From: Corynebacterium sp.
GTDB lineage: Bacteria; Actinomycetota; Actinomycetes; Mycobacteriales; Mycobacteriaceae
Direction: 5' to 3'
NCBI RefSeq assembly: GCF_030538285.1
Contig: NZ_JAUNUG010000015.1
Coordinates: 1 to 57,900 of the forward strand
Length of the DNA: 57,900 nucleotides
Below are positions 521 to 53,234 of the stretch, piece by piece. The notes under the pieces are model-generated. The model did no database searches and had not been told where the DNA came from. It saw nothing but the letters and a program-made list of their open reading frames with translations. Position 1 is the first letter of the stretch. Each line of letters begins with the position of its first letter. A program made the position numbers and the translations under genes.

Positions 521-1795
521 GTGAGGTATCCCCATCTGGCGGCAATCGACGCCGTCGCGTGGCCCGGCGTGGCGCGAGTTCCTGCTGGGCGGCTCGTTGA
601 CCTGCGCGCACGGCTGGCGGAGGCGAGTTTCGCCCGCGCGTGCGGCAACGCCGGGCTGGAGTTGGATCCGGATGCCGAGCCTGATCTCGTCGTTGAACAC
701 GAGGCGTTGTTTTCCCGTCTGGCTGTGTCCGGTTGGTTGGGGTTGGCGGAGAGTTTCATGGCGGGGGAGTGGCGTTCAGACACGCTTGTCGACGTCCTCG
801 CCGCGCTGATTTCCACCGGCTACCGACCGCGCGTCTCCGTGCCCGAGTCGCCGGGTTATGGCGGCGGCGAGTTGCCCGCCGAGCTCGTTGCGCTGGGTTC
901 CGGCGACGGGTTGAGCGCCTTCGGCGGGGTTTTCGCCTCCGGGGTGCCCACCACCGTGCGCACCGCCGTCCCCAACCACGCGGCGGGCAAGGGCCCGGAC
1001 ACCCACTTCGTCGATCTGACCACTTTTTCCGCCCCGGCTGCCGTGGACCGAGAAGATCTCGGCGACGCCCAGACACGCACCGCCACCATGCTTCTCGACG
1101 CCGCCCGCGTCTCCGCCGGCACCCACCTCTTGGAATTCGCCTGTTCCGGCGGTGCCGTGGCGATCCAGGCAGCGCACCGGCGGGCTACCGTGGATACGCT
1201 CACCGCTGATCCGCAGCAGGCAACGGCCGTGGGGGAGCAGTTGCTGTTGGCCGGTGTGGAGCCCAACGTGCTGGTCTCCGTCGTCGATGGCCCGGTGCCG
1301 CGCGAGCACCGCGGTTCCTATGATGCGATCGTCTCGGTGGAGAAGCTCGAAGTGCTGGAAACCCGCGACCGCGTCCGATACCTGCAGATGCTCGACCGTT
1401 CGTTGAGCGTCGGGGGATACGCGGCGATGCAATCCGTGGTGGCCACCGACGCGCTGAGCGGCGCAGCCAAGCAGGCACTGCACGCGCTGCGCGCCTACAT
1501 CTGGCCCGGGTTGGAGCACATGAACATCGAGGAAGTCCACAAGATGGCGGACCGGGAGACCGGCCTGCGGATCGTCGGTCAAACCCATATCGGTGGCCAC
1601 CACGAGGTATCCCTCGCCATGCAACGCTCCCTGTTCGAGGGGCACTTGCGGGAAGCTGCGGCCGCCGGTTTCGACATTGCTTTCCGACGCCTGTGGCTCT
1701 ACCAATTTGCCCTGCGTGAGGCCCTGTTCCGCCTCGGCATGCTCGATACTGTCCAGTTCACCATGACGCACCGCAACCGGCGGGGGCGCCGATAA
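521..1795 (+). CDS. Cyclopropane-fatty-acyl-phospholipid synthase-like methyltransferase
   Basis: A 424-residue protein of the CFA synthase / mycolic-acid methyltransferase superfamily, which uses S-adenosylmethionine to modify unsaturated acyl chains in phospholipids. The N-terminal domain carries LAESFMAGEW (the usual 'GESYMDGWW' region, about residues 72-82). The SAM fold has LLEFACSGGAVAI at about 202-214, where the glycine-rich loop is poorer than usual. The C-terminus YQFALREALFRLGMLDTVQF matches the CFA-synthase tail. The GTG start at 521 is supported by a TAGGAT -10 at 507-512, eight bases upstream, meaning a leaderless mRNA. Because the SAM loop is atypical, substrate and even activity are uncertain. 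Confidence 0.78.
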   Translation: MRYPHLAAIDAVAWPGVARVPAGRLVDLRARLAEASFARACGNAGLELDPDAEPDLVVEHEALFSRLAVSGWLGLAESFMAGEWRSDTLVDVLAALISTGYRPRVSVPESPGYGGGELPAELVALGSGDGLSAFGGVFASGVPTTVRTAVPNHAAGKGPDTHFVDLTTFSAPAAVDREDLGDAQTRTATMLLDAARVSAGTHLLEFACSGGAVAIQAAHRRATVDTLTADPQQATAVGEQLLLAGVEPNVLVSVVDGPVPREHRGSYDAIVSVEKLEVLETRDRVRYLQMLDRSLSVGGYAAMQSVVATDALSGAAKQALHALRAYIWPGLEHMNIEEVHKMADRETGLRIVGQTHIGGHHEVSLAMQRSLFEGHLREAAAAGFDIAFRRLWLYQFALREALFRLGMLDTVQFTMTHRNRRGRR

Positions 1796-1804
1796 GCTGG
1801 CACC

Positions 1805-2344
1805 ATGGGGCTCATGACCACACGTGAACCCACCGGATACCTGTCCACCGGCCCCGTCTGGCCTGAGTTGATCATCACCCGCCGCATCGCGCACGTCATC
1901 GATGCGGTCTGGAACCAGATCACCGACCCCGAGCTTCTCGATACCTGGTACGGCACCTTCGCCGGCGATCCAGCCGGTGGGGAAGTCACGGTGACCACCC
2001 ACGAGGTCCCGGATGCGCCGGGTACCGCGCGCATCGACCACTGCGAAGCGCCCCACGCACTGGCCGTCACCTTGCAGAGCCCCGCCGGGGAGTGGGTGCT
2101 CAGCGTAACCCTGAGCGCCGAGGGTGATGACACTGATCTGGAGTTCCGCCAGCGCCTCGACGGCCTCGAGTACGCCGCCCGTGACCTGGGCCCCGGGTGG
2201 GAGTACTACCTGGACAAGCTCGTCATGTCCTTGGCAGGGGAGGACGTGGCGACGCTGCAGTGGGACGACTACCATCCGGTGCTCTGCGAGCATTATGACT
2301 GCGCGCACCCCGAAGAACCCGGCCAGATGCCCGAAGAGAACTAG
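1805..2344 (+). CDS. SRPBCC (AHSA1-like) domain protein
   Basis: A 179-residue START/SRPBCC-fold protein, the family that binds hydrophobic ligands or acts as an Hsp90-activator-like module. The pattern ITRRIAHVIDAVWNQITDPE ... LDTWYGTF, then VLSVTLSAEGDDTDLEFRQR and GPGWEYYLDKL, is characteristic. No specific ligand can be named. The start is ATG 1805: TAAGCT at 1793-1798 is a -10 six bases upstream, predicting a leaderless transcript even though the previous gene ends only nine bases before. The acidic C-terminus and stop codon lie inside the first copy of a 176-bp-period tandem duplication that continues downstream. Confidence 0.75.
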   Translation: MGLMTTREPTGYLSTGPVWPELIITRRIAHVIDAVWNQITDPELLDTWYGTFAGDPAGGEVTVTTHEVPDAPGTARIDHCEAPHALAVTLQSPAGEWVLSVTLSAEGDDTDLEFRQRLDGLEYAARDLGPGWEYYLDKLVMSLAGEDVATLQWDDYHPVLCEHYDCAHPEEPGQMPEEN

Positions 2345-2637: not shown

Positions 2638-2743
2638 TGCCGTCGAGGTCGGGCATGCCGCAGGAGATGGGGCAGGTCCGGAGCGAAACCCCGACGTACC
2701 AGGCTGATGGCGTGGGCCCATCCTAGGGCAGTGCTGAAATGAC

Positions 2744-4804: not shown

Positions 4805-5611
4805 TCAGTCGCGCTGGCGGGAGCGCTTCCAGTGGCGGTACTCGTGGGTGACCATACGCTTGGAGATGGCCGCGGCGTCGGAAAGCTGCTCCAGGCGGTG
4901 GGCGAGACCCCACTTGGTCACCTCGAAGAGGGAGTCCTTGACGAAGCTGCCGTCCAGCTTCGACTCGCCGATCTCACGCTCGGTGAAGGTGATGGGTACT
5001 TCGCGGACGTCGAAACCGCCGGAGACGGCACGCCACGCCAGGTCCACCTGGAAGATGTAGCCGGCGTTGGAGAGTTCATCTAGGTCGAGGGACTCGAGGA
5101 CGTCGCGTCGATAAGCACGGTAACCCGCGGTCATATCAGTCAGTCCGGCGCCCAGCAGCAGGGAGATGTAGATGTTGCCGCCCTTGGACAGGATCCACCG
5201 CTTCTTCGGCCAGTTGATCACCTTGCCGCCCGGCACGTAGCGGGAGCCGATAACCAGGTCGGCGCCGGCGTCGACCTCATCGAGTAGCAGGTGCAGCTGC
5301 TCGGGTGCGTGGGAGCCGTCGGCGTCCATCTCGCACAGGACGGTGTACTCGCGCTCCAGGCCCCACTGGAAACCGGCGACATACGCGCCGCACAGGCCGC
5401 CCTTGCCCTCGCGGTGGAGAACGTGGATGTGAGTGTCATCGGCGGCGAGCTCATCGGCTTTGTCGCCGGTGCCGTCGGGGCTGTTGTCGTCGACGATGAG
5501 GATGTCGACCTCCGGGGTGGCAGAACGGACCCGGCCGACGATGAGCGGCAGGTTTTCCAGCTCGTTGTAGGTGGGGATGATCACCAGGGTCGCGTCACTG
5601 GGTTGAGTCAC
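4805..5611 (-). CDS. ppm1: Polyprenol monophosphomannose synthase
   Basis: A 268-residue soluble GT2 enzyme that moves mannose from GDP-mannose to polyprenyl phosphate, giving the lipid donor for lipomannan/LAM and protein O-mannosylation. Motifs: PTYNELENL (13-21), DDNSPDGTG (42-50), the metal-binding DADGSH, and GSRYVPGG. No membrane segments, as in the synthase half of mycobacterial Ppm1. Its GTG start overlaps the lnt stop (GTGA), so the two are translationally coupled. In M. tuberculosis the same two activities are fused in one protein; here they are separate, as in C. glutamicum. Confidence 0.93.
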
Positions 5612-7107: not shown

Positions 7108-7604
7108 TTGAAGTCCTCCGGGCGTACGTCGCGGGACCAGTCCTCGATGTCCGTGTCGTCCGGTTCATCGATGACCTGGGACGGGTCGGAGAAGCTGCCG
7201 TAGGAGGTACCGGGGCGTCGAGAAGCAGTCGCCTCGTAGCTGCGCACGCCCAGATCCTCAATGGAGGCCATCATCTTCTTCGCGGCGACCCGCCGCGCAA
7301 TGGCGCGAGTCGGCGGGAAAATCAGCAGCAGTCCCAGGATCGAGGAGGCGATACCGGGCGTGCCCGCCAGGACGCCGCCCAAGGAGAGCAGGCCGTAGTC
7401 ACCGGCCAGGCGACCGGCGGAGATCTTCTGTCCGGCGGCGAGCTGGCCGACGCGGCGCATTTCGATCGGTGCAGCCACCACTCCGAGGGCCATGAGCCCG
7501 AACATGAGCAGCAGGGCCCAGCCCACACCGAGCCAGGAACCGAAAGCCCAGAAGACGAGGGCCTCGATGATGAGGATGGGAAGGACGGCAAGTAGAAACG
7601 GCAC
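7104..7604 (-). CDS. FxsA family membrane protein
   Basis: A 166-residue protein with four hydrophobic segments (LLAVLPILIIEALVFWAF, GWALLLMFGLMALGVVAA, the glycine-rich LAGTPGIASSILGLLLIFPP, and neighbours) and a polar C-terminus, matching FxsA/YtzA. In E. coli FxsA relieves F-plasmid exclusion of phage T7; its cellular role here is unknown. GTG 7604 has TAGGGT six bases upstream (leaderless). It is the first gene of the operon with lnt and ppm1. Codons near 7216-7226 (Ala-Ser-Arg-Arg) embed the window-wide motif GCTTCTCGACG. Confidence 0.85.
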   Translation of the reverse strand: MPFLLAVLPILIIEALVFWAFGSWLGVGWALLLMFGLMALGVVAAPIEMRRVGQLAAGQKISAGRLAGDYGLLSLGGVLAGTPGIASSILGLLLIFPPTRAIARRVAAKKMMASIEDLGVRSYEATASRRPGTSYGSFSDPSQVIDEPDDTDIEDWSRDVRPEDFK

Positions 7605-7613
7605 GAGCCCACC

Positions 7614-8900
7614 CTACCGGCGTAGCTGATCGATCAACCACCCGACGTGGCGGGTCAGGTGCCGGTAATAGGGGCCGAAGTGATTGGCGCCGGTACGGCC
7701 CGGGATGGGCCAGGTGTCGTCGGCGAACCACTCCACGTCTGCTCCCCCGCTGCGCCACATGTCGCGCAGGTCGAGGACCTGTGAGAAGGGGACGACGTCA
7801 TCGTGGCGCGAGCCCCACAGCAGGACGGGCACGTCCGGTGCCCGTCGGCCCAGCGCCCGGGCCTCGAACTCGGCGGAGACGCACGGGAGGTCGTCGAGAA
7901 GCTCACCGAGCGGCACCCCGGCGTGGGTCCAGCGGTGGGTGCCGCGCCACCCGGAGGTGAACACGGAGCTGACGGCGCAGGTGGCGGTGTCCGCGGTGAT
8001 GTGGTCGAGGCCCTCAGGGGTGAGCGCGCCGAGGATCTCAGCGCGGATGTCCGGGGAGGCGACCATGAGCCCGGCGACGGCGTAGGAGAGCACGCCGGTG
8101 ACCAGCGAGCCGTCGACGTGGGCGAGGACCTCATCCAGGCGCGAGGGTGGTGCGCCGATCACGGCTGCCACCGGGGCGATGTCCGGGGCGTAGTCGGCGT
8201 TCTCCAGTGCCGCGCCCACGGCCGCACCGCCCTGGGAAAAGCCCCACATGCCGACCGGGGTGTGAGTGGGTAGACCGAGGTGGCGGGCGGCGCGGACGGC
8301 GTCGAGAAGCGAGTTGGCGCCGGAGGCATGATCGCAGTAGAGCTGCCAGCCGAAGTCGGGGTCGCGCGGGTAGTCGGTGAGCACGACGTGCATGCCGGCG
8401 GCGAGCATGGCGGTGATGGCGGGCAGTTCATAGCTGGCGACGATATCGATGGGGCCGCGCAGGGTGAATGACATGCCCACGGACATGGAATAGGAGGGAT
8501 CGCAGTGCGGCGCCACGCCCTGGGTGGAGGGTGCGAAGGCGATGACGGGGCGGGTGCCGCCGCGCCAGGGGCTGTGCGAGTGGAGGTAGGCGCCGGTGGC
8601 GGTGATGGTGCGGCCGCGGGCATCCGTGGTGACGTATTCCATGCGGGTGGCGGTGACGCGGCTACCGCCTATGAGCTGCATGGGGGCGTCGGCAAGCAGC
8701 GTTCCGGGCGGTTGGCCGATGACCCAGGTGGCGTCGCCGAAGCTGGGTTCGGCGTCCCATTCGGCATGCGTGGGGCGGGTCGGTTGGTGTCGGCGGCGCA
8801 GCACTCCCCTGCTGATTTCGTGGGCCAGCGGCAACCACGCGCGGGTAAGCGTGGAGCCCACGCCGGCGCGGTGGACCGGTGTCGCGCGCGAAAAGAACAT
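7614..8900 (-). CDS. Secretory-lipase-family alpha/beta hydrolase
   Basis: About 428 residues with an alpha/beta-hydrolase core. The nucleophile elbow GFSQGG sits near residue 222, a late Asp in SRHDDVVPF and a C-terminal His in GANHFGPYY could complete the triad. Overall it resembles the LIP (PF03583) secretory lipases and mycobacterial mycolyl-ester or triacylglycerol hydrolases. No clear signal peptide is visible. Start ATG 8900 is chosen over GTG 8909 because TAAGGT (minus strand, 8908-8913) lies seven bases before it. The substrate is inferred to be an acyl ester. Confidence 0.75.
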   Translation of the reverse strand: MFFSRATPVHRAGVGSTLTRAWLPLAHEISRGVLRRRHQPTRPTHAEWDAEPSFGDATWVIGQPPGTLLADAPMQLIGGSRVTATRMEYVTTDARGRTITATGAYLHSHSPWRGGTRPVIAFAPSTQGVAPHCDPSYSMSVGMSFTLRGPIDIVASYELPAITAMLAAGMHVVLTDYPRDPDFGWQLYCDHASGANSLLDAVRAARHLGLPTHTPVGMWGFSQGGAAVGAALENADYAPDIAPVAAVIGAPPSRLDEVLAHVDGSLVTGVLSYAVAGLMVASPDIRAEILGALTPEGLDHITADTATCAVSSVFTSGWRGTHRWTHAGVPLGELLDDLPCVSAEFEARALGRRAPDVPVLLWGSRHDDVVPFSQVLDLRDMWRSGGADVEWFADDTWPIPGRTGANHFGPYYRHLTRHVGWLIDQLRR

Positions 8901-8929: not shown

Positions 8930-9562
8930 GTGACCCACGCCAAGCTATATGTCGACCTTGTGCCCGCCTCCGGAATCGTCACCCCGGGTGGCTGGGAGCC
9001 GCTCGCCGTCCTGGCCGAACAGCTTTCCGACGCCCGCATCCACCTCACCGAGGCCGGTCATGTCCGGCTTTATGGTGCTTCAGCAGATTCGCTTATCGAC
9101 GTCGCCGGCTTCCACCCCGCCAGGGATCCCGCACCGGAGCCCGGCGAGATCGGCTGGCTCGGCCAGACCGACGGGCACGTGCATCTGGGGGCCGGGCTGC
9201 GCTTGGGGATGATGAGCACGCAGATCGCCCGGATGCTCGATGTGATTGAGGCGCCGGTGCGCGTGTGCCGCGGCGGCATCCTGCAGATCGAGGGCCTGGA
9301 GGAAGGCGTCGCGGAGCAGGTGGTGCGGGTGCTGGCGCCGCTGGGGCTGATTTTCGACGCCGGCTCCTCGTTGCTGCAGGTCAGCGCCTGCGGCAACTGT
9401 GGGCTCTCGCGTTCCGACGTCCACCTCGACGCCCTGCAGGCCGCCGCGGAAGGGGTGGATGGGCCGACCCATTTCGCCGGTTGTGGGCATCGTTGTGGCG
9501 CCCCGAGCGGGGATCACGTCGAGTACCTGGCCTTGGGCGAAGGGGAATACGAGGTCAGTTAG
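8930..9562 (+). CDS. Half-size CobG / precorrin-3B synthase-like protein
   Basis: A 210-residue relative of CobG and of nitrite/sulfite reductase ferredoxin-like domains. IHLTEAGHVRLYGAS is the first conserved strand region. Cysteines in SACGNCGLSRSD and FAGCGHRCGAP can bind an Fe-S cluster and siroheme or precorrin. Typical CobG is about twice as long and has two repeats; this is one. It stands alone, with no other corrinoid gene in the window, so a role in cobalamin synthesis is uncertain. GTG 8930 is preceded by TAGAAT (leaderless). Its last four bases overlap the convergent SDR gene. Confidence 0.7.
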   Translation: MTHAKLYVDLVPASGIVTPGGWEPLAVLAEQLSDARIHLTEAGHVRLYGASADSLIDVAGFHPARDPAPEPGEIGWLGQTDGHVHLGAGLRLGMMSTQIARMLDVIEAPVRVCRGGILQIEGLEEGVAEQVVRVLAPLGLIFDAGSSLLQVSACGNCGLSRSDVHLDALQAAAEGVDGPTHFAGCGHRCGAPSGDHVEYLALGEGEYEVS

Positions 9563-10278
9563 CGGGGCATGCGCCGCCAGACGGGGCGCGGCACCAGGCG
9601 CATGACCCAGGCCAGCAGGCGCAGGCGGCGCGGGATCCACAGGGTGCGCGAACCGCGGCCGCCGGTGATCTCTGCCGCGATGGCGTCGGCGACCTCTGCC
9701 GGGGTGACCGACATGGGTGCCGGGTCCATCCCTGCGGTCATGGTGCCGATAACGAAGCCGGGGCGGGCGGTGATCAGCCGCAGCCCGGAGCCGTGGAGGC
9801 GATCGGACAGGCCCTGGCAGAAGGCATCGAGGCCGGCCTTGGTGGAGCCATAGACGTAGTTGGCGCGGCGGGCCCGCCACCCGGCGATCGAGGAGAAAGC
9901 GATGATCTCGCCCTGCGTCATGACATCCGCCAGCACCGTGAGCATCGAGACCTGCGCGGTGTAGTCGATGGTGGCGATTTCTGCGGCGTGCGCCTCATCT
10001 GCTTCCGCGCGGGCCTGGTCACCGAGGACGCCGAAGGCCACGATGGCGGTGGATACTCCCCCGCTGAGCTCGATCGCTTCCTCCACGACCGGGCGGTGGG
10101 AGGCCAGATCGGTGGCTTCGAAGGGGAGGTGGTGGATGGCGGTGGCGCCGGCGTCGATAAGCAGCTGGACGTCGGGCTCACGACGGGCGGCGAGCACGAC
10201 CTCCCGCCCGGCGCACAGGCGGGTGGCCAGCTCGAGCCCGATCTCGGAGGTGCCGCCGAGCAACAGGATGGCGTTCAT
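9559..10278 (-). CDS. Short-chain dehydrogenase, DprE2-like
   Basis: A 239-residue SDR. The cofactor motif GGTSEIG lies at residues 8-14 and the catalytic Ser...Tyr-x3-Lys in SSIAGWRARRANYVYGSTKA. The latter strongly resembles DprE2, the reductase completing epimerisation of decaprenyl-phospho-ribose to arabinose. No dprE1 or arabinogalactan genes are adjacent, so this is more likely a paralogue than DprE2 itself. It follows the DODA-type dioxygenase gene by three bases and is probably co-transcribed with it. One LIDA codon block carries the motif GCTTATCGACG (10152-10162). Confidence 0.75.
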   Translation of the reverse strand: MNAILLLGGTSEIGLELATRLCAGREVVLAARREPDVQLLIDAGATAIHHLPFEATDLASHRPVVEEAIELSGGVSTAIVAFGVLGDQARAEADEAHAAEIATIDYTAQVSMLTVLADVMTQGEIIAFSSIAGWRARRANYVYGSTKAGLDAFCQGLSDRLHGSGLRLITARPGFVIGTMTAGMDPAPMSVTPAEVADAIAAEITGGRGSRTLWIPRRLRLLAWVMRLVPRPVWRRMPR

Positions 10279-11060: not shown

Positions 11061-12170
11061 CTACCTCAGATCACGTTGTTGATGTGACAGCGATTCTACG
11101 CCTGTAGGAGACACAACAACAATATCCTCCAGTCGCATTCCCCACTGCCCCGGCAGATAGATGCCCGGCTCGATGGAAAAACACATCCCCTCCTCCAGCA
11201 CCAGCTCGTTACCAGCCATGATGTAAGGCTCCTCATGGGTGGACAATCCGATGCCGTGCCCGGTGCGGTGGATGAAATACCCGCCGAACCCAGCCTGCGT
11301 GATCACCTCGCGGGCGGCGGCGTCCACCGAGGCCGCCGTCACCCCGGGGCGCGCCTGCGCCATCGCCGCGGCGTGGGCCTGTTGCAGGACCTCGTAGGCC
11401 GCGGCAGCATCTGTCGGAGCATGCTCCGCACCACCCACAATGTAGGTGCGCGTGGAATCCGAGTGGTACCCGGGACCGCGCGTGCCACCCACGTCAACGA
11501 CCACGACGTCACCTTCCTCCAGCACCCGGGCCGAATGCGAGTGGTGCGGATTCGCCCCATTCGGCCCCGAGCCGACGATGACGAAATCCACCACCGCATG
11601 CTCCTTGAGGATCAACGTGCGAAGATCCGCGGCCACCTGGTTTTCCGTACGGCCGGCCCGCAATAGCGACGGCACCCGCTCATGGACCCGGTCGATGGCC
11701 GCTCCGGCCAGCGCCAGCTGCTCGATCTCGGCGGCATCCTTCCGCATGAACAGCTCTTTGAGGGTGGTGGCGGCGGGGAGCACGGGGGCGTCGATAAGCT
11801 CCTGCAAGCGCAGCACATGCAGCGTGGTCAACGACGAACCCAGCGCCACGGGGCCGGGATCCAGCACCGCGACAGCGCGGGCGTGGGCATCCTCCCCATC
11901 CACCCACCCACGGACGATGACATCCAGATGGGGCAACGCCGAGAGCGCCAGATCCCCGATATCCGTCTGCGGGGCCAGCAGCACCGGGTGACCGTGCGCC
12001 GGAATCACCAGGGCCGTCAGTCGTTCATGCGAGCTGATCCAGGACCCCGTGAGATACGCCAGCTCCGGACCCGTGCCGATGATGAGCCCTGAAAGGCCCT
12101 GCTCACGGCACAATTCGGCGGCTCGGGTAAGACGCTCGGCGTATACATGCGTGGGAAACAGATCAGTCAT
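11061..12170 (-). CDS. pepQ: Xaa-Pro aminopeptidase / prolidase (M24)
   Basis: A roughly 369-residue cytoplasmic M24 metallopeptidase cleaving Xaa-Pro bonds. The two-metal site is complete: Asp residues in VVDVGGTRGPGYHSDSTRTY, His in HRTGHGIGLSTHE, and Glu in SIEPGIYLPG and MRLEDIVVV. The N-terminal creatinase-like domain covers about residues 1-130. ATG 12170 (MTDLFPTH) is preferred over ATG 12179 because TACGAT lies seven bases upstream (leaderless). Confidence 0.9.
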   Translation of the reverse strand: MTDLFPTHVYAERLTRAAELCREQGLSGLIIGTGPELAYLTGSWISSHERLTALVIPAHGHPVLLAPQTDIGDLALSALPHLDVIVRGWVDGEDAHARAVAVLDPGPVALGSSLTTLHVLRLQELIDAPVLPAATTLKELFMRKDAAEIEQLALAGAAIDRVHERVPSLLRAGRTENQVAADLRTLILKEHAVVDFVIVGSGPNGANPHHSHSARVLEEGDVVVVDVGGTRGPGYHSDSTRTYIVGGAEHAPTDAAAAYEVLQQAHAAAMAQARPGVTAASVDAAAREVITQAGFGGYFIHRTGHGIGLSTHEEPYIMAGNELVLEEGMCFSIEPGIYLPGQWGMRLEDIVVVSPTGVESLSHQQRDLR

Positions 12171-31914: not shown

Positions 31915-32000
31915 GGTGCGGTCCTTTCGCTGGATAAACACTCAATCGCCCATCGTAGCGATTTTGCTTATCGACGCCCCGTCGGCGACCACCTCACCAC

Positions 32001-37451: not shown

Positions 37452-38471
37452 GTGAAAGCCGGACGTGTGACTGCCCTGGCGGCGCTGACCGCCCCCGTTT
37501 GCCTGCTGGTTGCTTGTGGCACAAGCCCCACCAACCCGGAGGTGCCCGATCTTGGTAATGCGGTGGCGGCGTCCTCCCCTGCCGCTGATTCCCCGGCGGG
37601 TGAGACGATGGAATTTTCCGGCGAGATCTCCGATATGGAGGCCGCCGGCGAGGTCCTTGGCCTGCGGCACGGTGCGACGCTGACCCTGGGCACGCTGGAG
37701 GAGCTGCGCGCGGGGCAAACCCACGATGTGGACGTCCCGGATACCTGCGCTGATCTCACGGCGACGCAGGAGACGTTCGTCCTGGCGTGCGGCGATGAGG
37801 TGCTGCTTATCGACGCCGCCGACGGCACCGTCGACAGTCATTCCGTCGCCGATTCTGACGCCGCTCCCGCGGCTTCAGCCGTGTTGACGTCGACGGGCGA
37901 GCTTGTCGTCGGATCCGCTGAGAACGACCGGGTGGTGGTTTTTGTGGAGGGTGAGGAGCAGTCCTCCATCACGGTGGCCGGGATGACTTCCCAGCTGCTG
38001 GCCACCGCGGTGGGCGGCCAGGATGACGCGGTGGTGCGCACCAACCACGAGAACACGACCATCCAGGACATTCACTGGCGCGACGGCAGGCAGGGCGGCA
38101 CCCTCCGCGTGGGTCTGGGTATCGGCCAGGCGGCCGTTGGCCCGGAGGGGCTGGTCCTCGCGTCGGACAATCGTGGTGGACAGTTAGCCGTCTACACCGC
38201 CGACAATGTAGTGCGCCTGCACCAGACGGTGCCGGTCACCAACAGCCCGTGGGCCGTGGCCTGGGACGTCGAGCGTGACCTGGCGTGGATCACCACCACT
38301 GCCGACAACCAGCTCCATGCCTTCACCCTGGCTACGGGCGTGCCGGAAGAGGTGGGCACGATCGAGACGATCGAGGATGCCCACAACCTGGTGGCCCTGC
38401 CGGACGGCACCCTCGTGATCGCCTCTGCCACCGGTGGTGGCGTGCAGGTCATCACCGACCCCGAACTCTAA
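37452..38471 (+). CDS. Secreted lipoprotein, predicted beta-propeller
   Basis: A 339-residue exported protein. The signal peptide [18 protein letters not shown] has a lipobox (LVAC) with Cys at about residue 22. The rest consists of repeated beta segments such as [19 protein letters not shown] and [20 protein letters not shown]-like blocks ([13 protein letters not shown]), suggesting a WD40/NHL-like propeller. GTG 37452 has TAGGCT eight bases upstream. No enzymatic motif is seen. It lies 13 bp before pyrD. Confidence 0.78.
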
Positions 38472-39643: not shown

Positions 39644-39660
39644 CGTCGATAAGCAGCCGA

Positions 39661-40071: not shown

Positions 40072-40611
40072 CTACTTGTTCTCGTACCAACCCCAGAGAA
40101 TGGCCCGGCCGAGAGAGTGGAAATACAGGTTGAAACCCAACACCGTCGCCGTGGCACCCGGGTCGATGTCCAGCTTCTCGACGTCCACCGCGTGCACCGC
40201 AAAAAGATAGCGGTGCGGGCCGTGGCCCTCCGGCGGGGCGGCACCGTAGTACTCGCGCTGCCCGGAGTCATTGGCCAGGGCGATGACGCCGTCCAGGCCC
40301 AGATCCTCCTGCGAACCGGCGCCGGTGGCCAGCTCCGAGGTGTCCACCGGGATGTTGAACGCCGCCCAGTGCCAGAAACCGGAGGCCGTCGGCGCGTCCG
40401 GGTCAAAGCAGGTCACCGCAAGGGACTTGGTGCCCTCCGGCAGGTCGGACCACGCCAGCTGCGGGGAGACGTTCGCCGGGGCGCACTGCTCCTCGGCGAG
40501 CTTCTCGCCTTCCGCCAGGTCCGTGGAGCTGAGCGGGAAGGATGGCAGGTCCTTGAGCGGGGCGTAGGGATCGGGGCCGGGGAAACGGGAATCAGATGCG
40601 TAAGAGGTCAT
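40072..40611 (-). CDS. YbhB/YbcL family Raf-kinase-inhibitor-like protein
   Basis: A 179-residue PEBP-fold protein. The two ligand-site motifs FDPDAPTASGFWHWAAFNIP and GHGPHRYLFAVHAVD are intact. No signal peptide is visible, so it is cytoplasmic. Bacterial PEBPs bind anions or phospholipid-like ligands; the function is unknown. It is followed by the four-helix membrane protein. Confidence 0.9.
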   Translation of the reverse strand: MTSYASDSRFPGPDPYAPLKDLPSFPLSSTDLAEGEKLAEEQCAPANVSPQLAWSDLPEGTKSLAVTCFDPDAPTASGFWHWAAFNIPVDTSELATGAGSQEDLGLDGVIALANDSGQREYYGAAPPEGHGPHRYLFAVHAVDVEKLDIDPGATATVLGFNLYFHSLGRAILWGWYENK

Positions 40612-42409: not shown

Positions 42410-43989
42410 CGGAATTCCTCCACCTGATCTGCCACGGCCCGCCATGCCGCCGAGGTACTCACGACGACGGTTGCCCGCCCCCGCCGCAAGCGCGCCACGT
42501 TCTGCGCCACGAGGTCGAGGGTGACGGCATCCAACCCGGTGGTCGGCTCATCCAGCACGAGCACCTCTGGGTCGTGCACCAGCCACCGGGCGAGGGCGAC
42601 GCGCTGGCGTTGCCCGCCAGATAGATTGAGCCCAGCTTCCCCGATCGGAAAATCAGGCAGCGTGCCACCATCCATCCCACCCAGCCGGGTGATGATGTCC
42701 CCACACGCCGCTGCCGACAATGCCGCCTGCACTTGTTCCGGGTGGGCGGTGCCCAAGGGGTCGATGTTGTCGGCCAGAGTGCCCTCGAACACGGCCGCCG
42801 CATGCGGGGCGACGACCACCTCCGGAGAGGCCTCCAATTCCGCGAGGCGCTGCCGTACCCGCCGGATACCGGCAGCGCTGTGGGCCGACCACACAATCAC
42901 CCCCGCCTCCGGGATGTCCGAGTGATGGGGGCGGAACTCCGAAACTTGCAGATCACCGACCAGTTTCTGGATCCGCCCCGCCGAAACCATCCCGCGCGAC
43001 CAATAATCCACTGCAAAACTCAATGCGAAACCCAGGTACATCAGCGCGGGCGGCACCATGAGCGCGACGGTTACCAGCTCCGCATCTGTGATCGTGTCGC
43101 GGCGCAACATGAGGGCCGCCACGACCACGATCCCCACCACACACAACGTGGGCACCACCTGGCGCACCAGTGTCAGCCAGCCCGTCAGCCGCGCCTCCAT
43201 GAGCATGATGCGCAGGGCGCGGCCGGTCGCGGCGTCGAAACGCTCCTCCGACACCTCAACTGCCCCCAATCCCTTCACCACCCGTGAACCCTGCGCCACG
43301 TCCGTCGCCAAAGATACGGCCGCACCTTCTGCTTCTCGACGCCGCGCCCCCACCCGCGCCAGCGGACCTGCGGTGGCAAACGTGGTCACGGTCGTGAGAA
43401 CACCTGCCAGCACCAACAGACCACCCAGCACAGGATGCGCCACACCCACTGCGACCGCTGAACCCAACAAGTAGGCCACCATCATCACCGGCCAGTTGAG
43501 GACCTCCTTCAGCTCACCCACCTGGAAGGAATCCCCATCCACCGTGTTGAGCACTTGCCCCGGAGTCAGCTCCGTCGGCTCCGCCCCCACCAAGCGCTCC
43601 GTCAGCGACAGGCGCACCGAATGCACCGTCCGGGCAGCTGCCATATCCGCCATCGCATCACCCGTCGACTCCGCCACCCACGACGCCAAAGCCACCCCGA
43701 CTATCACCAGCACCGCGATCAGCGCCACCGGCAGCGAGGCCGATTCGAAGGCCCGCGTACCGCCCTGGGCCACCACCACCGAGACAAGCACCGATGCACC
43801 CATCCCCACGATGGTCGAGACCAGCAGGACCATCACCGCGCGTCCATGCAGACCCGCCAACACTACTGCGCCGCGAGCCCGCGAGGACCACGCCTCCGGC
43901 CGCACCTCGACATCTCGCTCCGGGGCACGCCGGGGTACGAACCACGACCAGGTTGGTATCCGCCGGGGCGGGCGATACAAGCGATCCAT
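42406..43989 (-). CDS. ABC exporter half-transporter A (Walker A missing, signature kept)
   Basis: About 527 residues with an exporter membrane domain ([38 protein letters not shown] and others). The ATPase domain is shortened at its start: after [20 protein letters not shown] there is no GxxGxGKS/T P-loop at all. The rest is normal: [17 protein letters not shown] near 453 and Walker [13 protein letters not shown] near 478. The H-loop His is replaced ([12 protein letters not shown]). Together with subunit B only one ATP site can be complete. Confidence 0.87.
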
Positions 43990-44314: not shown

Positions 44315-44377
44315 CAGGGCCCCGCGGCCCCACGCCCCTAGTGGGAGGCCTGGACGCCGCGCGGGGCGTCGAGAAGC

Positions 44378-44803: not shown

Positions 44804-44867
44804 TGATACTCCTTTGTTGGTTGACGTACGCCTCCCCAGTGTAGACGCGGGCGTAGACTGACCCCTT

Positions 44868-45569
44868 GTGAAACGGTTCGGGCAGTACTTCCTGGCTCTG
44901 CTGAGCGACGCCGCCGGGGCCGTCGCCGCCTGGTCATGGGCCCGTCGCATCGTCGTTGCGGGGGCGTTGGCGGCGTTTTTGGCCGTCACATTGCTTATCG
45001 ACGTCCCCGCCATCACCACCCTGCGCCAATGGTCGGAGGCCGCCGGCCCGTGGTTTGTGGGCCTGTTCTGGCTGGCTTATGTGGTGATCACGCAGTTTCC
45101 GGTGCCGCGGACGATCCTGACGCTGTCGAGCGGACTGCTGTTCGGCCCGTGGATGGGCATCATCGTGGCTTTGACAGCGACCACCGTGGCCGCGGCACTG
45201 AGCCTGTCGGTGGTGCGCGGGTTGCTGGGTGAGTGGATGGCCCCGCGGCTGCGGCATCCGGCGGTGGCGGGCATCAACGCACGCCTGGAGCAACGTGGGT
45301 GGTTGGCAGTGACCAGTCTGCGGATGATCGCTGGCGTGCCTTTCTCCATCATGAACTACGCCGCCGCGCTGACGAGCGTGCCGTTGGGGATGTTCACGGT
45401 GGCCACCCTGATCGGCTCGGCACCGGGAACAGTGGTGACGGTGGTGCTCGGAGATGCATTGACAGGGGAGCTCGACCCGTTGGTCATCGGGTTGACGGTG
45501 GTGTTGGCGGTGCTGGGGTTGGTGGGACTCGCCGTCGACCAACGCCTCCCGGTCAAGTCTGTGACGTAG
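44868..45569 (+). CDS. TVP38/TMEM64 (DedA-like) membrane protein
   Basis: A 233-residue protein with about five membrane segments. The family core TLSSGLLFGPWMGIIVALTA and later LRMIAGVPFSIMNYAAALTS, where the conserved 'R..P..PF...NY' is visible, identify it. DedA/TVP38 proteins act in membrane-lipid flipping or ion homeostasis; the function here is unproven. GTG 44868 has TAGACT eight bases upstream (leaderless). It ends 10 bp before the HTH gene. Confidence 0.85.
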   Translation: MKRFGQYFLALLSDAAGAVAAWSWARRIVVAGALAAFLAVTLLIDVPAITTLRQWSEAAGPWFVGLFWLAYVVITQFPVPRTILTLSSGLLFGPWMGIIVALTATTVAAALSLSVVRGLLGEWMAPRLRHPAVAGINARLEQRGWLAVTSLRMIAGVPFSIMNYAAALTSVPLGMFTVATLIGSAPGTVVTVVLGDALTGELDPLVIGLTVVLAVLGLVGLAVDQRLPVKSVT

Positions 45570-46155: not shown

Positions 46156-47391
46156 TTAGCGCCCCTCCACCTCTGGCTCTCGCTGCTCACCGAAATCGAA
46201 GCTCGGGGCAGGCGGGGTGGATTCAATCTCGCGCTGCTCCGGCGACGGTGACGTCGCGGGCGCCGATGCCTTCTGCACCTTGATCTCGTGCGGCTCCGGG
46301 TCGACGGGCTTGTTGGCCACGGCGGTGGCGGCGGCGACGGCCGCGGCGATCTCGGGGTCGGTGGCGGTGTTGAACCACTCGTCGGTGTCCTCGGTGCCGG
46401 CCATCTGGCGGGTCTCGTCGTCGACAAGCGAGGGCTCGTAGCGGAAGACTCCCTCGTCGTCCTTCTGGGCGAATGCGCGGGCGAACTGCTCGAGAGAATC
46501 GCCGAACTGGGAGGGGATCATCCACATGGTGGAGGCCTGGCCCTCGGCGAGCTTCGGCAGCTTCTCCAGGTACTGGTAGGCCAGCACCTCGGGGGTGACT
46601 TTGGAGGACTTGATGGCGGCGTTGACCTTCTGGATGGCCTGGGCCTCACCCTGTGCCTGCAGGAAGCGGGCGGCGCGCTCACCCTCGGCCTTGAGGATCA
46701 TGCCCTGGCGCTCGGCCTCGGCCTGAAGGATGGCGGCGTGCTTCTCACCCTCGGCGGAGAGGATGCGGGCCTGCTTCTCACCCTCGGCGGTTTTGATGTC
46801 GGACTCGCGGCGACCCTCGGCGGTGAGGATCATGGCTCGCTTTTCGCGGTCCGCCTTCATCTGCATCTCCATGGACTGCTGGATGGACGGCGGCGGGTCG
46901 ATCGCCTTGAGCTCGACGCGGCTGATGCGCAGGCCCCACTTGGAGGTGGCGGCATCCAGCTCGCCGCGCAGGCGGCGGTTGATCGTCTCGCGCGAGGTGA
47001 GGGTCTCCTCCAGGGTCATACCACCGACGACGTCGCGGAGGGTGGCCACGGAGATCTGCTCCACGCCCACGATGTAGTTGTCCACGCCGTAGATCGCCTT
47101 GGCCGGATCATTGATCTGGAAGGTGACCACGATGTCGATGGCGACGGTGAGGTTGTCCTGGGTGATCACGGCCTGCGGCGGGAAAGACACAACGCGCTCG
47201 CGGGTGTCCACGCGGGCGCGGATGCGGTCGACGAAGGGCACCAGCAGGGTGAGCCCGCCGGCGACGGTGCGGGTGTAGCTGCCGAGTCGCTCGATGACCG
47301 CGGCCTCACCCTGGGGGATGAGCGCGATCGACTTGATGACGACAACGGCGACGAAGATGAGGAGGACAATAAGAAGTATGAGTCCGGCCAT
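46156..47391 (-). CDS. SPFH/Band-7 membrane protease-partner protein (QmcA-like)
   Basis: A 411-residue stomatin-like scaffold: N-terminal membrane helix (LILLIVLLIFVAVVVIKSIA), then the SPFH domain (IPQGEAAVIERLGSYTRTVA, FQINDPAKAIYGVDNYIVGV). A long coiled coil follows, with repeated EGEKQARILSAEGEKHAAIL units, and then an acidic Pro-rich tail. Such proteins organise membrane domains and hold NfeD partners; the next gene encodes NfeD, six bases away. GGAAGGAAA lies upstream of ATG 47391. Confidence 0.92.
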   Translation of the reverse strand: MAGLILLIVLLIFVAVVVIKSIALIPQGEAAVIERLGSYTRTVAGGLTLLVPFVDRIRARVDTRERVVSFPPQAVITQDNLTVAIDIVVTFQINDPAKAIYGVDNYIVGVEQISVATLRDVVGGMTLEETLTSRETINRRLRGELDAATSKWGLRISRVELKAIDPPPSIQQSMEMQMKADREKRAMILTAEGRRESDIKTAEGEKQARILSAEGEKHAAILQAEAERQGMILKAEGERAARFLQAQGEAQAIQKVNAAIKSSKVTPEVLAYQYLEKLPKLAEGQASTMWMIPSQFGDSLEQFARAFAQKDDEGVFRYEPSLVDDETRQMAGTEDTDEWFNTATDPEIAAAVAAATAVANKPVDPEPHEIKVQKASAPATSPSPEQREIESTPPAPSFDFGEQREPEVEGR

Positions 47392-48731: not shown

Positions 48732-49445
48732 ATGGATATCCGCGCCGAGGTCTGGTCACCGCTGCAAAACACCGCCGTCTGGCTCGGCGCCTGGCTCCAC
48801 GGCCTGGAGGCCACCGACAATCTCGTCGATGCGCTGCACGATCTCGGCGCGGAAGGCCTGGTGGAGGTCCTGGGCGATATCCGTCGTTGCGCGCTTATCG
48901 ACGCCGCGTCCCCCGCCGTCAGGCTCATCCTGTCCGGTCCCGGGGAGGCTCCCGCCTTGCCGGCGGGTGGTGCGGCGGCGCGGGCGGCGTCGATAAGCGG
49001 ACAAGCGTTGGTGCTGGCCGAGAGGCACGTGCTCGTCCCCGACAAGGAGGGGAATTGGCAGTGGTTCGAGGAGGAGGATCCGCTGCCGGCGCCCGCGTGG
49101 CTGAGCCCCGGCGAGGCTGATGAGCTGCTCACCCGGGCGACGGCGCAGGCTGCGCAGCTGGTCACCGACTCCGGTTACCGCACGGACGTGCTGGAGGCCC
49201 CACGCCTGACGGTAGGCACGCTGGCGGACTTCTACGACACCCCCGGGCTCCCGGCGGCCGTCCCGCCGCGCGCCGCGAAGCTCTTTGCCCGCGCCGATCG
49301 GGTGGCAGCGATCATCGAGACGGTGAAAACCCGGATGAAGGACCACCGCATCGACCCGCAACTGCTGGGGCTGTGGCGACACATCCGGGCCGCGCGCATG
49401 GCCGGGGTGGACTACGCGGTGCGGGATTTCGACCGGCTGATCTGA
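48732..49445 (+). CDS. Coryneform conserved hypothetical protein
   Basis: A 237-residue soluble protein ([20 protein letters not shown]) without recognised motifs; mostly helical, Ala-rich, ending [13 protein letters not shown] 48732 has TAGACT eight bases upstream. The gene's last 34 bp overlap the end of convergent hemH. It contains two copies of the 11-mer, at 48893-48903 as LID (CTT ATC GAC) and at 48988-48998 read as Ser-Ile-Ser with the rare ATA codon. The longer open frame extending upstream is a shadow of the DUF3097 gene. Confidence 0.75.
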
Positions 49446-50476
49446 CAGCAGCCCGGGCGGCAGGCCTGCCCGTTGACGGTGCAGCCCTGGACGGTGACCT
49501 CGCCGAGGGAGGCGGGCGGATCGTTGGCCACGAGCTCGTCGATGATATCGACAACCATGCCGGCGAAATCCTGCTCCGGGCCGGCGGTGCGGGTGCGTTC
49601 GACGTGGACGTCGAGGTCGCGGGCGGCGTCGGCAAGCTCGGTGTCCAGATCCCAGATCACCTCCATGTGATCGGAGATGAAACCCACCGGACACACAACG
49701 ACGGCCTCGATACCCTCCGCGGCAATGGCCGTGGTGTGGTCGACGATGTCCGGCTCGAGCCACGGGGTGCGCGGGTTACCGGAACGGGACTGCCACACGA
49801 CGTCGTATTCCCCCACCCCGGCGGCCTCTGCGATAAGACGGGAAGCTTCGGCGACCTGACGGGAATACAAGTGGGAATCCTCCGGGCCACCCGCCGCCTC
49901 ATCGGCGGCCGTGGGCACCGAATGTGCGGTAAACAGCACCCGGGTATTACGCCCCGCAGGCACCTTCGCCAGCGACTCAGCCAACGCCTCGGCCATGAGC
50001 CGGATGAAGGTGGGATGATCGTAGAACTGACGCAGCTTGGTGAACTCGATCGGCGCGACGCCCTTGTCCTCCAGGTGGGCGATAATCCGCCGGATGTCCT
50101 CGTTGTACTGCAGGCACGCGGAATAACCTCCCCAAGCGGAGGTCGCGAACACCAGCGCCCGCCGCACACCGTCGGCGGCCATCTGCTCGGCGGTATCCTC
50201 GCCGAAGGGGTGCCAGTTGCGGTTGCCGAAGTAGACCGGTAGATCCAGGTCGCGGGAGGCGAGCTCGGACTTCAGGTTCGCGATGATCTCCTTGTTCAGG
50301 CGGTTGAGCGGGCTGACTCCCCCGAAGTGGAAGTAATGCTCACCGACCTGGGCCAGGCGCTCGCGCGGGATGCCGCGGCCGCGGGTGACGTTCTCCAGAA
50401 AGGGGACGACCTCCTCGTCCCCTTCGGGGCCACCGAAGGAGAGGACGAGGAGGGCGTCGAAATTCAGTTCAGTCAT
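49412..50476 (-). CDS. hemH: Coproporphyrin ferrochelatase
   Basis: A 354-residue enzyme inserting iron in the coproporphyrin-dependent haem route of actinobacteria (also called CpfC). [49 protein letters not shown] (metal-site His) and [13 protein letters not shown] (Glu) are diagnostic. The Cys-rich C-terminus [10 protein letters not shown] is consistent with the 2Fe-2S cluster of actinobacterial enzymes. ATG 50476 has TAGGCT seven bases upstream (leaderless). A palindrome just upstream may be an operator. Confidence 0.95.
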
Positions 50477-50513: not shown

Positions 50514-52283
50514 CTAGATCAGGCGCACGGCGTGGGGCGACATTCCAGACCAGCGGACCGGGGAGATCTTAACGGAGGAACCGGAGTTCGGGGCCTCGAT
50601 CATCGTGCCGTCCCCCAGGTAGATGGCCACGTGCTGGTTGCCACCGGGGCCGTAGAAGATGAGGTCACCGCGCTGCATCTGGCTGGGGTCGACCTTGGTG
50701 CCGTGGTTGTACTGGTAGCCGGTGTAGTGCGGTAGAGCGATGCCGACACCGGCGAAGGCGTAGAGCACGAGGCCGGAGCAGTCGAAACCGATTTTGTTGA
50801 AGTCACCGAAGGAGTCGGCCACACCACCGTCGCGGATGCCGCGGGTCGGGCCGCTGGCGTTGCCGCCGCCCCAGGCGTAGGGCACGCCGATCTGGGACTG
50901 GGCGCGGGCGATGACTGCCTCGATCTTCGCCGAACGGTCACCGATGTCAGCGACCTGCTCGGCGGCCTGTTCGGTGACATCCTCGATGGTCTCCAGCACC
51001 GGCGCCTGCGGCAGATCCTCCTCGACGACCTCCGGTTCCGGGTTCTGCACCGCCGCGATGGGGGCAGGGGCAGTGTCCTCATCGCTGGTGGACGGGTAGG
51101 GGTTGTCCAGGTTGCCGTGGTCGGGCTGGGAGGCGACGATGACGGCGGCCGCGGCAGCCACGGCAGCAGCGGTGGCGGCGTCGCGGAAGGCCTGGGCCTC
51201 GGCTTCGCGGGCGGCGGTGGCGGCGGCTTCTTCCTCGGCGCGGGCCTGCGCTTCCTGGCGGGCCGCGGCCTCTGCCTCGGCCTGCTCGGCGGCCTGGCGG
51301 GCAGCCGCGGCGGCTTCTTCTGCTTCTCGACGCTCGCGTGCGTCGCGCTCCACAGCTTCCTGCGCCGCTGTTTCCGCTGCGGCGGCCTCAGCGGCGGCGG
51401 TCTCAGCGGCCTGGCGGGCGGAGTCCGCGGCTGCGGACTCTTCTGCGGCGACGCGGCGTGCTTCCTCAGCCGCGGCCGTGTCCGCCGCCGCATTGTCTTC
51501 GGCGGCGCGGCGCTGGGCATCTGCCGCGCGGTACTCCTCAGCGTCCTGGCGGGCGGCGTTGCCGGCGGCGATCTCCTCGCGGGCCTCATTGAGCTGGGCC
51601 TGGGCAGCATCGCGCTCAGCAGCCAGGCGATCGCGCTCGGCAGTCAACTCACCGATGCGGAAATTGTTGGTCTCGATGGCGGCGCGGGCCTGCGTCTCGC
51701 GCTCGGCGGCGCGGGCCTCGCGCGCTTCGGCGACGTTGCGCAGGTAGCGCAGCTCGGACTCGCGGTTGGCCTGCTCGGTGCGCAGCTGATCCAGTTCCTC
51801 GATGGCAGCGCGCTGCTTTTCGGCATTGGTGCGCAGGTACGTCTGGCGGTCGAGGGAGTCGTTGGAGGCTTCTTCGCCGGCGAGCGTGGCGACGGCGGTG
51901 GGGGTAGCCGTGCGACGGTAGGCGGCGCGGGAGATCTCGTCGAGCTTGGCCTGCGCCTCATCGATCTCGGCCTGGGTCTTGTCCAGCTCCGCGCGGGCGA
52001 CGATGACGGCCTGGCGAGCCTGTTCGGCGGTGGCCTGGGCATCGTGCAGATCAACGAGAGCCTTGTTGACCTCCTCGTGGAGTCCACCGATCTCCAGCGC
52101 CAGGCGGTCCATCTCAGACTCCGTGCGGGAGACGTCGGTGGCGAGCGAGGCCACGCCCGATTCCGTCGGGGTAGCGGGGGTCGCGGAGACGACAGCCGGG
52201 GTGAAGGCTGTCAGGCTGCCTGCGCACAGGGCGGTGGCAAGCACGGTGCGCAGGCGTGCGCGGATGGCGGTGGTCGAGGCCAC
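50514..52283 (-). CDS. NlpC/P60 peptidoglycan endopeptidase, RipA-like
   Basis: A 589-residue secreted cell-wall hydrolase. Signal peptide ([15 protein letters not shown], cleavage near ATPA about residue 35); long Ala/Glu coiled coil, about residues 45-370; low-complexity linker; C-terminal NlpC/P60 domain. The domain has the catalytic Cys in [12 protein letters not shown], His in [11 protein letters not shown] and a further polar residue in APNSG. Homologues (Rv1477 RipA, C. glutamicum Cg1735, C. diphtheriae DIP1281) cut D-Glu-mDAP bonds during cell separation. GAGGAG precedes GTG 52283. The long leader and a distant CRP-type box suggest tight control. Confidence 0.93.
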
Positions 52284-52733
52284 GTGAACTCCTCACGAAC
52301 CCACCCATGACAAGACCTCAGGCTTGACGAAGGCGGGTGCCGAATCGGTTGATCATCGGTGTAGGCACACGGGTATCCGGACCCGCCTCATCCTTAAGTG
52401 TCTCTTCGCGCTTGGCGTGCTTCCCCACATGCCCGTGCGATGACGATGACGACCCGGTTGGCCGTGACTCTGTTAGATGCCGGTGGCTTCCATCGACCCG
52501 TGAGCCGATATTGGCACCATAGAACACGTGAGGCTCCTGTGACCCAACGTTTATCAAGATTCACATCAGTAAAGCCTGACCCCATGACCAACAGGGCCGG
52601 TTGACCTGCGAAATGACGAATCGATAACAAATGTGTGAGTTCAGTCACACTTTGTGCTCCACCCGGCGTGTCGGCATGCTAGCCACATAACAATGCGGCA
52701 ACAGTTTGCCCGTCAAAACATCTCAGCGCGTCA
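52284..52733 (-). other. 450-bp leader/promoter region of the RipA-like gene
   Basis: No gene is supported. On the minus strand it contains the CRP/GlxR box (52634-52649) and then about 350 nt of relatively AT-richer DNA. Foldable pieces just before the start codon include GCGGGT-CCGGAT-ACCCGT (about 52367-52385) and CCGA/TCGG around 52341-52362. A structured 5' UTR is possible. I checked for the ydaO (c-di-AMP) riboswitch often upstream of such genes but did not see its conserved core. Confidence 0.5.
52634..52649. promoter_or_regulatory. Perfect CRP/GlxR-type binding site
   Basis: TGTGAGTTCAGTCACA matches TGTGA-N6-TCACA exactly, the consensus of GlxR, the cAMP-dependent global regulator of corynebacteria. 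It lies about 350 bp before the RipA-like start codon and 82 bp after the end of the Rv1476-like gene. Confidence 0.75.
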
Positions 52734-53234
52734 AGCGCTCAACCTTGACGGCGCCACCCTCCGGGCGTTCCATGCCGTTAGCGCAGCCGCCACAGCGACC
52801 AGCAGCAACACCACCACCAGGATCCCCACCCAGTTCAGTGACCACCCGTTGACGTCGTCGATAAAGCGATGGACGCCCCCCACCACATCCCCGTCCGCCA
52901 GGAAGGGGTACTGCGCGGTCTCTATCTCAGCCCGCGAGTGAACATCGGAGACAATCGCCCCCGATCCCGGCGCCCGGACAATTACCGTCTCCACCTCCGT
53001 GGCCACCAGCACATCCTGGGCGATATCCCGCAGATCCGGGGTATGCGCTGGCGTGTGCTCTAAAACAACGACCCCCAACGACCCAAAACCGGAGGACTCG
53101 GCGTGCGACGCGGCGTCGATAAGCCCAGGTTCCAACTCCCCCATCTTCTCCGCCGGCACGAAGGAGCCGAAGGCGACGGAGTCCTCGTCGATCTGGCGGG
53201 CAAGGTCGTCGATATCGACACCTTCAGGAATCAT
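52731..53234 (-). CDS. Rv1476-like single-pass membrane protein
   Basis: About 167 residues: a soluble N-terminal domain of about 120 residues (MIPEGVDIDDLARQIDEDSV ... HSRAEIETAQYPFLADGDVV) and one C-terminal membrane helix (WVGILVVVLLLVAVAAALTA). The pattern resembles TPM-type proteins with a tail anchor. The neighbourhood acn - this gene - RipA-like hydrolase is kept in mycobacteria (Rv1475c-Rv1477). ATG 53234 is preferred over TTG 53240. The role is unknown but linked to the hydrolase by synteny. Confidence 0.85.
   Translation of the reverse strand: MIPEGVDIDDLARQIDEDSVAFGSFVPAEKMGELEPGLIDAASHAESSGFGSLGVVVLEHTPAHTPDLRDIAQDVLVATEVETVIVRAPGSGAIVSDVHSRAEIETAQYPFLADGDVVGGVHRFIDDVNGWSLNWVGILVVVLLLVAVAAALTAWNARRVAPSRLSA

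Follow-up and report, generated by a model that had tools for sequence, protein, structure and literature searches.

An over-represented word in a Corynebacterium contig

The stretch analysed here, hereafter the window, comprises 57,900 nt of contig NZ_JAUNUG010000015.1 from a Corynebacterium sp., along which a short word recurs on both strands, in genes as well as between them. The initial annotation had listed 15 copies of GCTTATCGACG and 13 of GCTTCTCGACG, all of which were recovered at the same positions and on the same strands. It had also estimated that each should occur well under once, in agreement with dinucleotide-shuffle means of 0.02 and 0.03 (none of 100 shuffles reached the observed numbers). 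Variants with G or T at the fifth base are likewise present (784, 20596, 46419 and 14576), and a pattern with N as its fifth and Y as its sixth base finds 40 sites in the window (Table 1); the definition should be widened from the two 11-mers to GCTT-NY-CGACG. According to a rough gene caller, seven of these sites lie outside genes, including the three copies already taken as intergenic (31966, 39644 and 44367), and some of the other four may correspond to missed genes. The acn gene is devoid of motif sites, as had been noticed before.

The motif reads 5'-(T/C/A)GCTT-NY-CGACG-CC-3', or GCTT-NY-CGACG with biased flanks: T, C or A but seldom G is found at position 0, C in 81% at position 13, and C in about 65-70% of the sites at position 16. 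The centre bases in a 366-kb sample of the same genome were AT (109), CT (52), GC (18), TT (16) and GT (10). Against the 250 GCTTNNCGACG sites of this sample, the commonest single core change was G at position 3 (44 cases), followed by two changes at position 4 (33 and 32), with all other single core changes seen 16 times or fewer. Variants at positions 3 and 4 are commoner in the GC-richer Corynebacterium genome G019 (165, 203 and 78 versus 427). Under a second-order Markov model, the listed top 16 words of each length from 9 to 12 all overlapped the motif or its immediate flanks. A mobile repeat was ruled out, as the flanks are common to the sites over a few bases only.

Excess over codon-shuffled sequence

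The genome carrying the window is a 94-contig draft of 2.95 Mb (96.11% complete, 6.73% estimated contamination) from a Corynebacterium closely related to C. pollutisoli, with a Dop identity of 93% over 515 columns. Genome-wide, GCTTMTCGACG occurs 1,273 times (655 + 618) against 7 (2 + 5) for the reversed word, and GCTTNYCGACG 1,753 times against 27 for its reversed control, so the excess first noticed in the window holds for the genome.

Synonymous codons were then shuffled within genes defined by the rough gene caller (100 shuffles; 316,674 coding bases of the own-genome sample). GCTTATCGACG was found 80 times against 2.9 predicted and GCTTCTCGACG 48 times against 4.0, with a shuffle maximum of 8 in both cases, while the controls gave 2 against 3.7 for the reversed word, 19 against 25.6 for the GCTC version and 20 against 24.3 for the GCTG version. 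GCTTNYCGAC lacking the following G was found 4 times against 11.0 expected. The purine version GCTTNRCGACG was in excess as well (27 against 4.5), and Y at position 6 is therefore a preference rather than a rule. Synonymous ratios at the sites are abnormal: CTT makes up 106 of the 128 Leu codons in the context xxG-Leu-N[TC]C-GAC-Gxx, compared with 582 of 10,584 (5.5%) across the sample; in G019 the figures are 97 of 154 at the motif and 2.1% overall. Codon shuffling of G019 gave 85 against 11.5 for the CT centre and 40 against 4.8 for the GT centre; the GCTC version (55 against 41.6, shuffle maximum 53) was slightly over, and so was the version without the first G (37 against 23.2, shuffle maximum 32). 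Chance or composition is ruled out as the cause by the shuffles and the Markov model. A peptide or codon-use artefact is ruled out by codon shuffling together with the placement of the sites, which fall in more than one reading frame, on either strand and also in intergenic DNA; this bears out the earlier remark that the word does not encode one peptide. Of the two outcomes that the initial annotation had named as refuting the signal, counts at the level of codon-shuffled controls and normal synonymous ratios, neither was observed.

Distribution in the genus and a second dialect

The signal belongs to the genus Corynebacterium, as seen in 121 genomes drawn evenly from it (116 of them with at least 90% completeness and at most 5% contamination). 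Genomes were called motif-rich where GCTTNYCGACG reached at least five times its reversed control, which was the case for 89 of the 121, with a median of 764 copies. Seven others carry instead a second dialect, GCTTNNCGATG, in which CGACG is changed by one base to CGATG. Because the reversed pattern is a weak baseline for GCTTNNCGATG, this dialect was judged on absolute counts, namely 1,021 (G006), 680 (G077), 213 (G097), 159 (G108), 736 (G118), 974 (G129) and 1,080 (G135), and the first-dialect word is present in these seven genomes at 22-64 copies. Three genomes retain a residual motif (G065, G086 and G144, 77-107 copies), and 22 have neither dialect.

The second dialect was found de novo in G118 (50 copies against 4.0 expected in 200 kb) and was the top gapped word in G006 as well (45 against 3.1 in 100 kb). 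In G077 (L203-L207) it is extended, the two bases that follow the core being C in 89% and 96%, and GCCGATGCC is by itself over-represented there (51 against 2.9). On a five-protein tree of 19 genomes, four of the five second-dialect genomes included fall into one clade together with the motif-less G014 (support 100/100), and G108 stands apart from it; with this exception, dialects are shared within clades.

Among 32 named genomes reached through loci, GCTTNYCGACG occurs 103-1,510 times in 26, for instance in C. pollutisoli (1,451), C. gallinarum (1,010), C. propinquum (980), C. urinipleomorphum (940), C. silvaticum (884), C. glucuronolyticum (853), C. lubricantis (689) and C. ulceribovis (226). 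The remaining six (C. falsenii, C. dentalis, C. spheniscorum, C. suicordis and two C. jeikeium) have 11-36 copies. The C. jeikeium group forms a clade on the Dop tree, with support of 100/100 without C. parakroppenstedtii and 93/93 with it; the latter species has 217 copies genome-wide, its motif-less label on that tree having come from a 21-kb sample. The second dialect showed no excess beyond background in ten named genomes (36-61 copies), and a de novo word search returned no comparable word in G030, G063 and G014 (100, 100 and 200 kb) or in pooled loci of the C. jeikeium clade. G014 (L183-L192) contains a dispersed repeat, with about ten copies in 200 kb and with words like CTCAACAGTTA, which supplies its top words. 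The first-dialect word is reduced in C. oculi (494 copies), zg-331 (103) and C. mastitidis (181), and in the pooled loci of these three (L028-L030) GCCTCGATGA-like words are mildly over-represented, which may point to another dialect, decay or peptides that they share.

Beyond the genus, 196 further genomes of the class were counted and all stayed far below these numbers (top count 188 in the 10-Mb G286; top ratio 2.6 in G190, 39 against 15). Within the order, counts of the M pattern in 24 genomes from other families were small, at 3-54 per genome, with control ratios scattering up to 6 (G057, 19 against 3).

Conservation, orientation and spacing of the sites

Thirteen window sites could be aligned with C. 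pollutisoli; the core was intact at eight, had one mismatch at four and two mismatches at one. Core identity exceeded flank identity in this species (0.949 versus 0.856, Fisher p 0.006), in L027 (0.929 versus 0.817, p 0.002) and in L043 (0.872 versus 0.792, p 0.06), in a comparison that followed the window sites, favoured neither core nor flank and left sites gained in the relatives outside the count. The centre bases change freely at orthologous sites while the core is kept.

Table 1. Motif sites in the window, with the state of orthologous sites in relatives where aligned.
Motif site	Coordinates	Strand	Remark
GCTTGTCGACG	784..794	+	
GCTTCTCGACG	1090..1100	+	
GCTTTCCGACG	1679..1689	+	
GCTTTCCGACG	4876..4886	-	
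GCTTATCGACG	5106..5116	-	
GCTTCTCGACG	7216..7226	-	
GCTTCTCGACG	7892..7902	-	
GCTTCTCGACG	8300..8310	-	
GCTTGCCGACG	8687..8697	-	
GCTTTCCGACG	9022..9032	+	
GCTTATCGACG	9091..9101	+	
GCTTATCGACG	10152..10162	-	
GCTTATCGACG	11789..11799	-	C. pollutisoli: core intact
GCTTCTCGACG	14117..14127	-	C. pollutisoli: core intact
GCTTTTCGACG	14576..14586	+	C. pollutisoli: core intact
GCTTCCCGACG	17413..17423	-	C. pollutisoli: core intact
GCTTATCGACG	18616..18626	-	C. pollutisoli: 2 core changes
GCTTATCGACG	19501..19511	+	C. pollutisoli: 1 core change
GCTTGTCGACG	20596..20606	+	C. pollutisoli: core intact
GCTTCTCGACG	20740..20750	+	C. pollutisoli: 1 core change
GCTTCTCGACG	22947..22957	+	core intact in C. 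pollutisoli, L027, L043 and C. hylobatis
GCTTATCGACG	25859..25869	+	C. pollutisoli: core intact, centre GT
GCTTATCGACG	26336..26346	-	C. pollutisoli: 1 core change
GCTTTCCGACG	29010..29020	-	C. pollutisoli: 1 core change
GCTTCTCGACG	29764..29774	-	C. pollutisoli: intact
GCTTATCGACG	31966..31976	+	outside called genes
GCTTACCGACG	33451..33461	+	
GCTTCTCGACG	33538..33548	-	
GCTTATCGACG	37805..37815	+	
GCTTATCGACG	39644..39654	-	outside called genes
GCTTCTCGACG	40173..40183	+	
GCTTCTCGACG	43331..43341	+	
GCTTCTCGACG	44367..44377	-	abuts end of gene called at 44378-45019
GCTTATCGACG	44993..45003	+	
GCTTGTCGACG	46419..46429	-	
GCTTATCGACG	48893..48903	+	
GCTTATCGACG	48988..48998	-	
GCTTGCCGACG	49627..49637	-	
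GCTTCTCGACG	51322..51332	+	
GCTTATCGACG	53114..53124	-	

Strand polarity, reported absent from the window, was absent from G019 too, where a complete contig with dnaA at base 1 allowed two arm segments of this one genome to be compared: 196 sites were leading and 198 lagging (n = 394; 95% confidence interval of the fraction 0.447-0.548), with 104 plus and 98 minus sites in 400 kb of one arm and 100 and 92 in 380 kb of the other. The genes of both segments do show a bias (227:121 and 103:167), and the orientation assigned to the arms is therefore correct. Summed over the 89 motif-rich genomes, 34,819 sites are forward and 34,791 reverse. FtsK-orienting sequences (KOPS), which have strong origin-to-terminus polarity, were thus ruled out by the two G019 arm segments.

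The intergenic share is near proportional, 38 of 221 sites lying in the 14.2% of one sample that is intergenic and 33 of 202 in the corresponding 15.4% of another, and spacing is near-random, with coefficients of variation of 0.90 and 0.95. Close pairs occur at chance level, with 12 against 12.7 expected in the own genome, 16 against 17.7 in G019, 8 against 4.7 in the named loci and 3 against 2.9 in other loci. A main role as terminator pairs was ruled out on these numbers and on the finding that three of the nine convergent pairs within 45 bp are intergenic. Convergent pairs made up 20 of the 39 pairs closer than 100 bp where a quarter was expected (p 0.0004), in a post hoc comparison that includes some orthologous pairs. 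In the G019 samples, the longest interval devoid of sites (24.5 kb, contig 1, 2439786-2464300, L246-L248) is a CRISPR-Cas locus of type I-E, in which at least 211 repeats follow one another at a spacing of about 61 bp.

Scarcity in plasmids and phages

The motif is scarce in the 16 phage and plasmid records inspected, as judged against the genus at large (the median of 764 per motif-rich genome). Eleven plasmids (740,268 bases) contain 14 sites and 6 reversed controls, and five phages (291,402 bases) contain 5 sites and no reversed control; the second dialect was found 10 times in these plasmids and 3 times in these phages. Three of the four sites on the C. striatum plasmid pTP10 fall within mshC, a gene of chromosomal type, and one within a tetracycline-efflux gene, which suggests that the mshC piece (L213, 11684-12898, three sites) is of chromosomal origin.

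Competence and Tad genes

Genes for a putative DNA uptake machine are widespread in the genus. comEC and dprA were found in all 121 genomes and comM in 120, and the Tad ATPase (TIGR03819) gave some match in 118 and a match over cut-off in 112, two of the others matching weakly. comEA is present in all 19 genomes compared, and the gene order of the Tad locus is common to all 20 loci compared. A gene for a DEAD-box/MrfA-type helicase adjoins the Tad cluster in 20 of 20 genomes (L133-L152). The Flp-type pilin matches Pfam DUF4244, and a Pfam scan returned no family for the CpaE-like protein or for TadE, one wrong frame having been used for the latter. Transformation of another actinobacterium, Micrococcus luteus, depends on tad genes, according to an earlier study (PMC4322843).

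A probable role in DNA uptake and alternative functions

We consider it probable that the motif is a genus-wide tag of self DNA, most likely a DNA uptake sequence. Its copies number hundreds to thousands per genome, far above both the chance and the codon-shuffled expectation, and they stand in both orientations without replication polarity, which is typical of uptake sequences. A frequent, non-palindromic, orientation-free and self-specific word with dialects and losses looks like such a sequence (PMC3630211).

From this behaviour we infer a receptor, uptake and competence along the following lines. In naturally competent cells, a surface DNA receptor would bind the non-palindromic core GCTT-NN-CGACG in double-stranded DNA, candidates being the Flp pilin, a TadE/TadF-like minor pilin or ComEA, and would favour the entry of tagged fragments through ComEC, after which DprA, ComM and RecA would recombine them into the chromosome. 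Tagged alleles would be taken up and recombined more often, and sites arising by point mutation would be kept and spread, even via synonymous positions. Preferential uptake of this kind would leave the sites randomly oriented, spaced almost at random and scarce in phages and plasmids. With a change of receptor could come a shift of the preferred word to a new dialect, as from CGACG to CGATG in one clade, and sites would decay where specificity was lost, as perhaps in the C. jeikeium clade and others.

Several observations weigh against this reading. The advantage of core over flank is gone at larger distance (C. hylobatis, 0.759 versus 0.747; C. lemuris, 0.722 versus 0.764), and sites therefore turn over. 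Separation of the dialects is strong but not absolute, since the first-dialect genomes G011, G036 and G098 hold 150-159 copies of GCTTNNCGATG. comEC, the Tad ATPase gene, dprA and comM are equally present in motif-less and motif-rich species. No residue that tracks the dialect was found in 11 protein families of the Tad and com loci (a strict test on 5 and 9 genomes gave 0 diagnostic columns), TadE, TadF and CpaE having been named by position and best matches accepted up to E 10, so that small proteins may be mismatched. In the motif-rich genomes G001 (L156), G136 and G138 comEC was matched as two pieces, as was tadA in G125 and G136, and the motif-rich drafts G099 and G116 gave no tadA match; these cases may reflect real loss, sequencing error or incomplete drafts. 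Moreover, our search of the open-licence literature found no report of natural transformation in Corynebacterium. Because the machinery is equal in motif-less species, no dialect residue emerged and comEC or tadA is split, or tadA unmatched, in a few motif-rich genomes, the case for uptake draws on the behaviour of the motif and on analogy.

Among the alternatives, a recombination signal resembling Chi, with dialects and recognised by a nuclease-helicase of the AdnAB/RecBCD type, ranks first, though we regard it as improbable. Chi sites are known for high copy number, a non-palindromic word, rarity in phages and clade-specific wording, all of which the Corynebacterium word shares. They are also biased to the leading strand and 5-8 bases long, whereas the motif is evenly split between leading and lagging strands in G019 and its nine fixed bases are long for Chi. 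The initial annotation had likened the undescribed signal to DNA-uptake or Chi-like sequences; the former likeness survived the tests run, and the latter is disfavoured by the absence of polarity over 394 sites.

Scarcely less probable is that a nucleoid-associated or chromosome-organising protein binds the motif at sites spread evenly along the chromosome. Such a role would agree with the even spread of the sites, their lack of polarity and their presence in and between genes, but it predicts neither scarcity on resident plasmids nor a clean one-base dialect shift in a clade, and the organising sites known so far occur in tens of copies, whereas the present motif has about a thousand. An abundant genomic word of a process yet to be named, as with HIP1 of cyanobacteria, is a more doubtful possibility. 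HIP1 is likewise abundant, clade-bound and rare in mobile DNA, yet it is a palindrome, and the Corynebacterium word differs from its reverse complement. Least likely is a modification mark, a word by which a methyltransferase or similar enzyme would label self DNA, since selection does not normally multiply modification sites at synonymous positions, and the word is long and ungapped but for two free bases, even though phage and plasmid scarcity, dialects and patchy losses would suit such a mark. The methyltransferase and nucleoid-protein options explain less of the dialects and of the scarcity in phages and plasmids than an uptake sequence does. Returning to DNA uptake, we lean, by a narrower measure than for the tag itself, towards the view that the whole genus Corynebacterium may undergo natural transformation by way of a Tad-pilus/ComEC machine, which would read a dialect-specific watermark of up to about 1,750 sites per genome, independent in origin of those of Neisseria and Haemophilus and shifted by one base in one clade.

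Comparison with known systems

To our knowledge, the groups with established uptake sequences, such as Neisseriaceae and Pasteurellaceae, are all Gram-negative. Searches of the open-licence literature with the exact words, and for uptake, competence, Chi and over-represented words combined with Corynebacterium or Actinobacteria, returned no description of the motif, priority being unproven. On the best reading, and as far as this literature shows, the Corynebacterium motif would be the first Gram-positive DNA-uptake-sequence system with dialects. If this is true, self-recognition in DNA uptake would have evolved again in Gram-positives, and the watermark would predict which corynebacteria, be they soil organisms, skin commensals or pathogens, can exchange genes. 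The motif makes natural transformation in the genus directly testable and offers a simple marker of foreign DNA.

A known counterpart in machinery is the Tad/Flp competence pilus of M. luteus (PMC4322843), with which the Corynebacterium genomes examined share an actinobacterial tad locus and com genes. The main text of that paper does not use the terms uptake sequence, uptake signal or sequence-specific. The Haemophilus uptake signal resembles the motif as a short word of about 1,300 copies, and its inverted pairs often build terminators, whereas close pairs of the Corynebacterium word are found at chance frequency only (passages of PMC5217627, which mention Corynebacterium for CRISPR repeats only). 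In behaviour the motif resembles the DNA uptake sequence (DUS) of Neisseriaceae, a short non-palindromic word of about a thousand or more copies, the dialects of which follow phylogeny and act as barriers (PMC3630211), and the receptor of which is ComP (PMC3868556). Unlike it, the Corynebacterium word belongs to another phylum, is a different word with two free centre bases, and is probably of independent origin.

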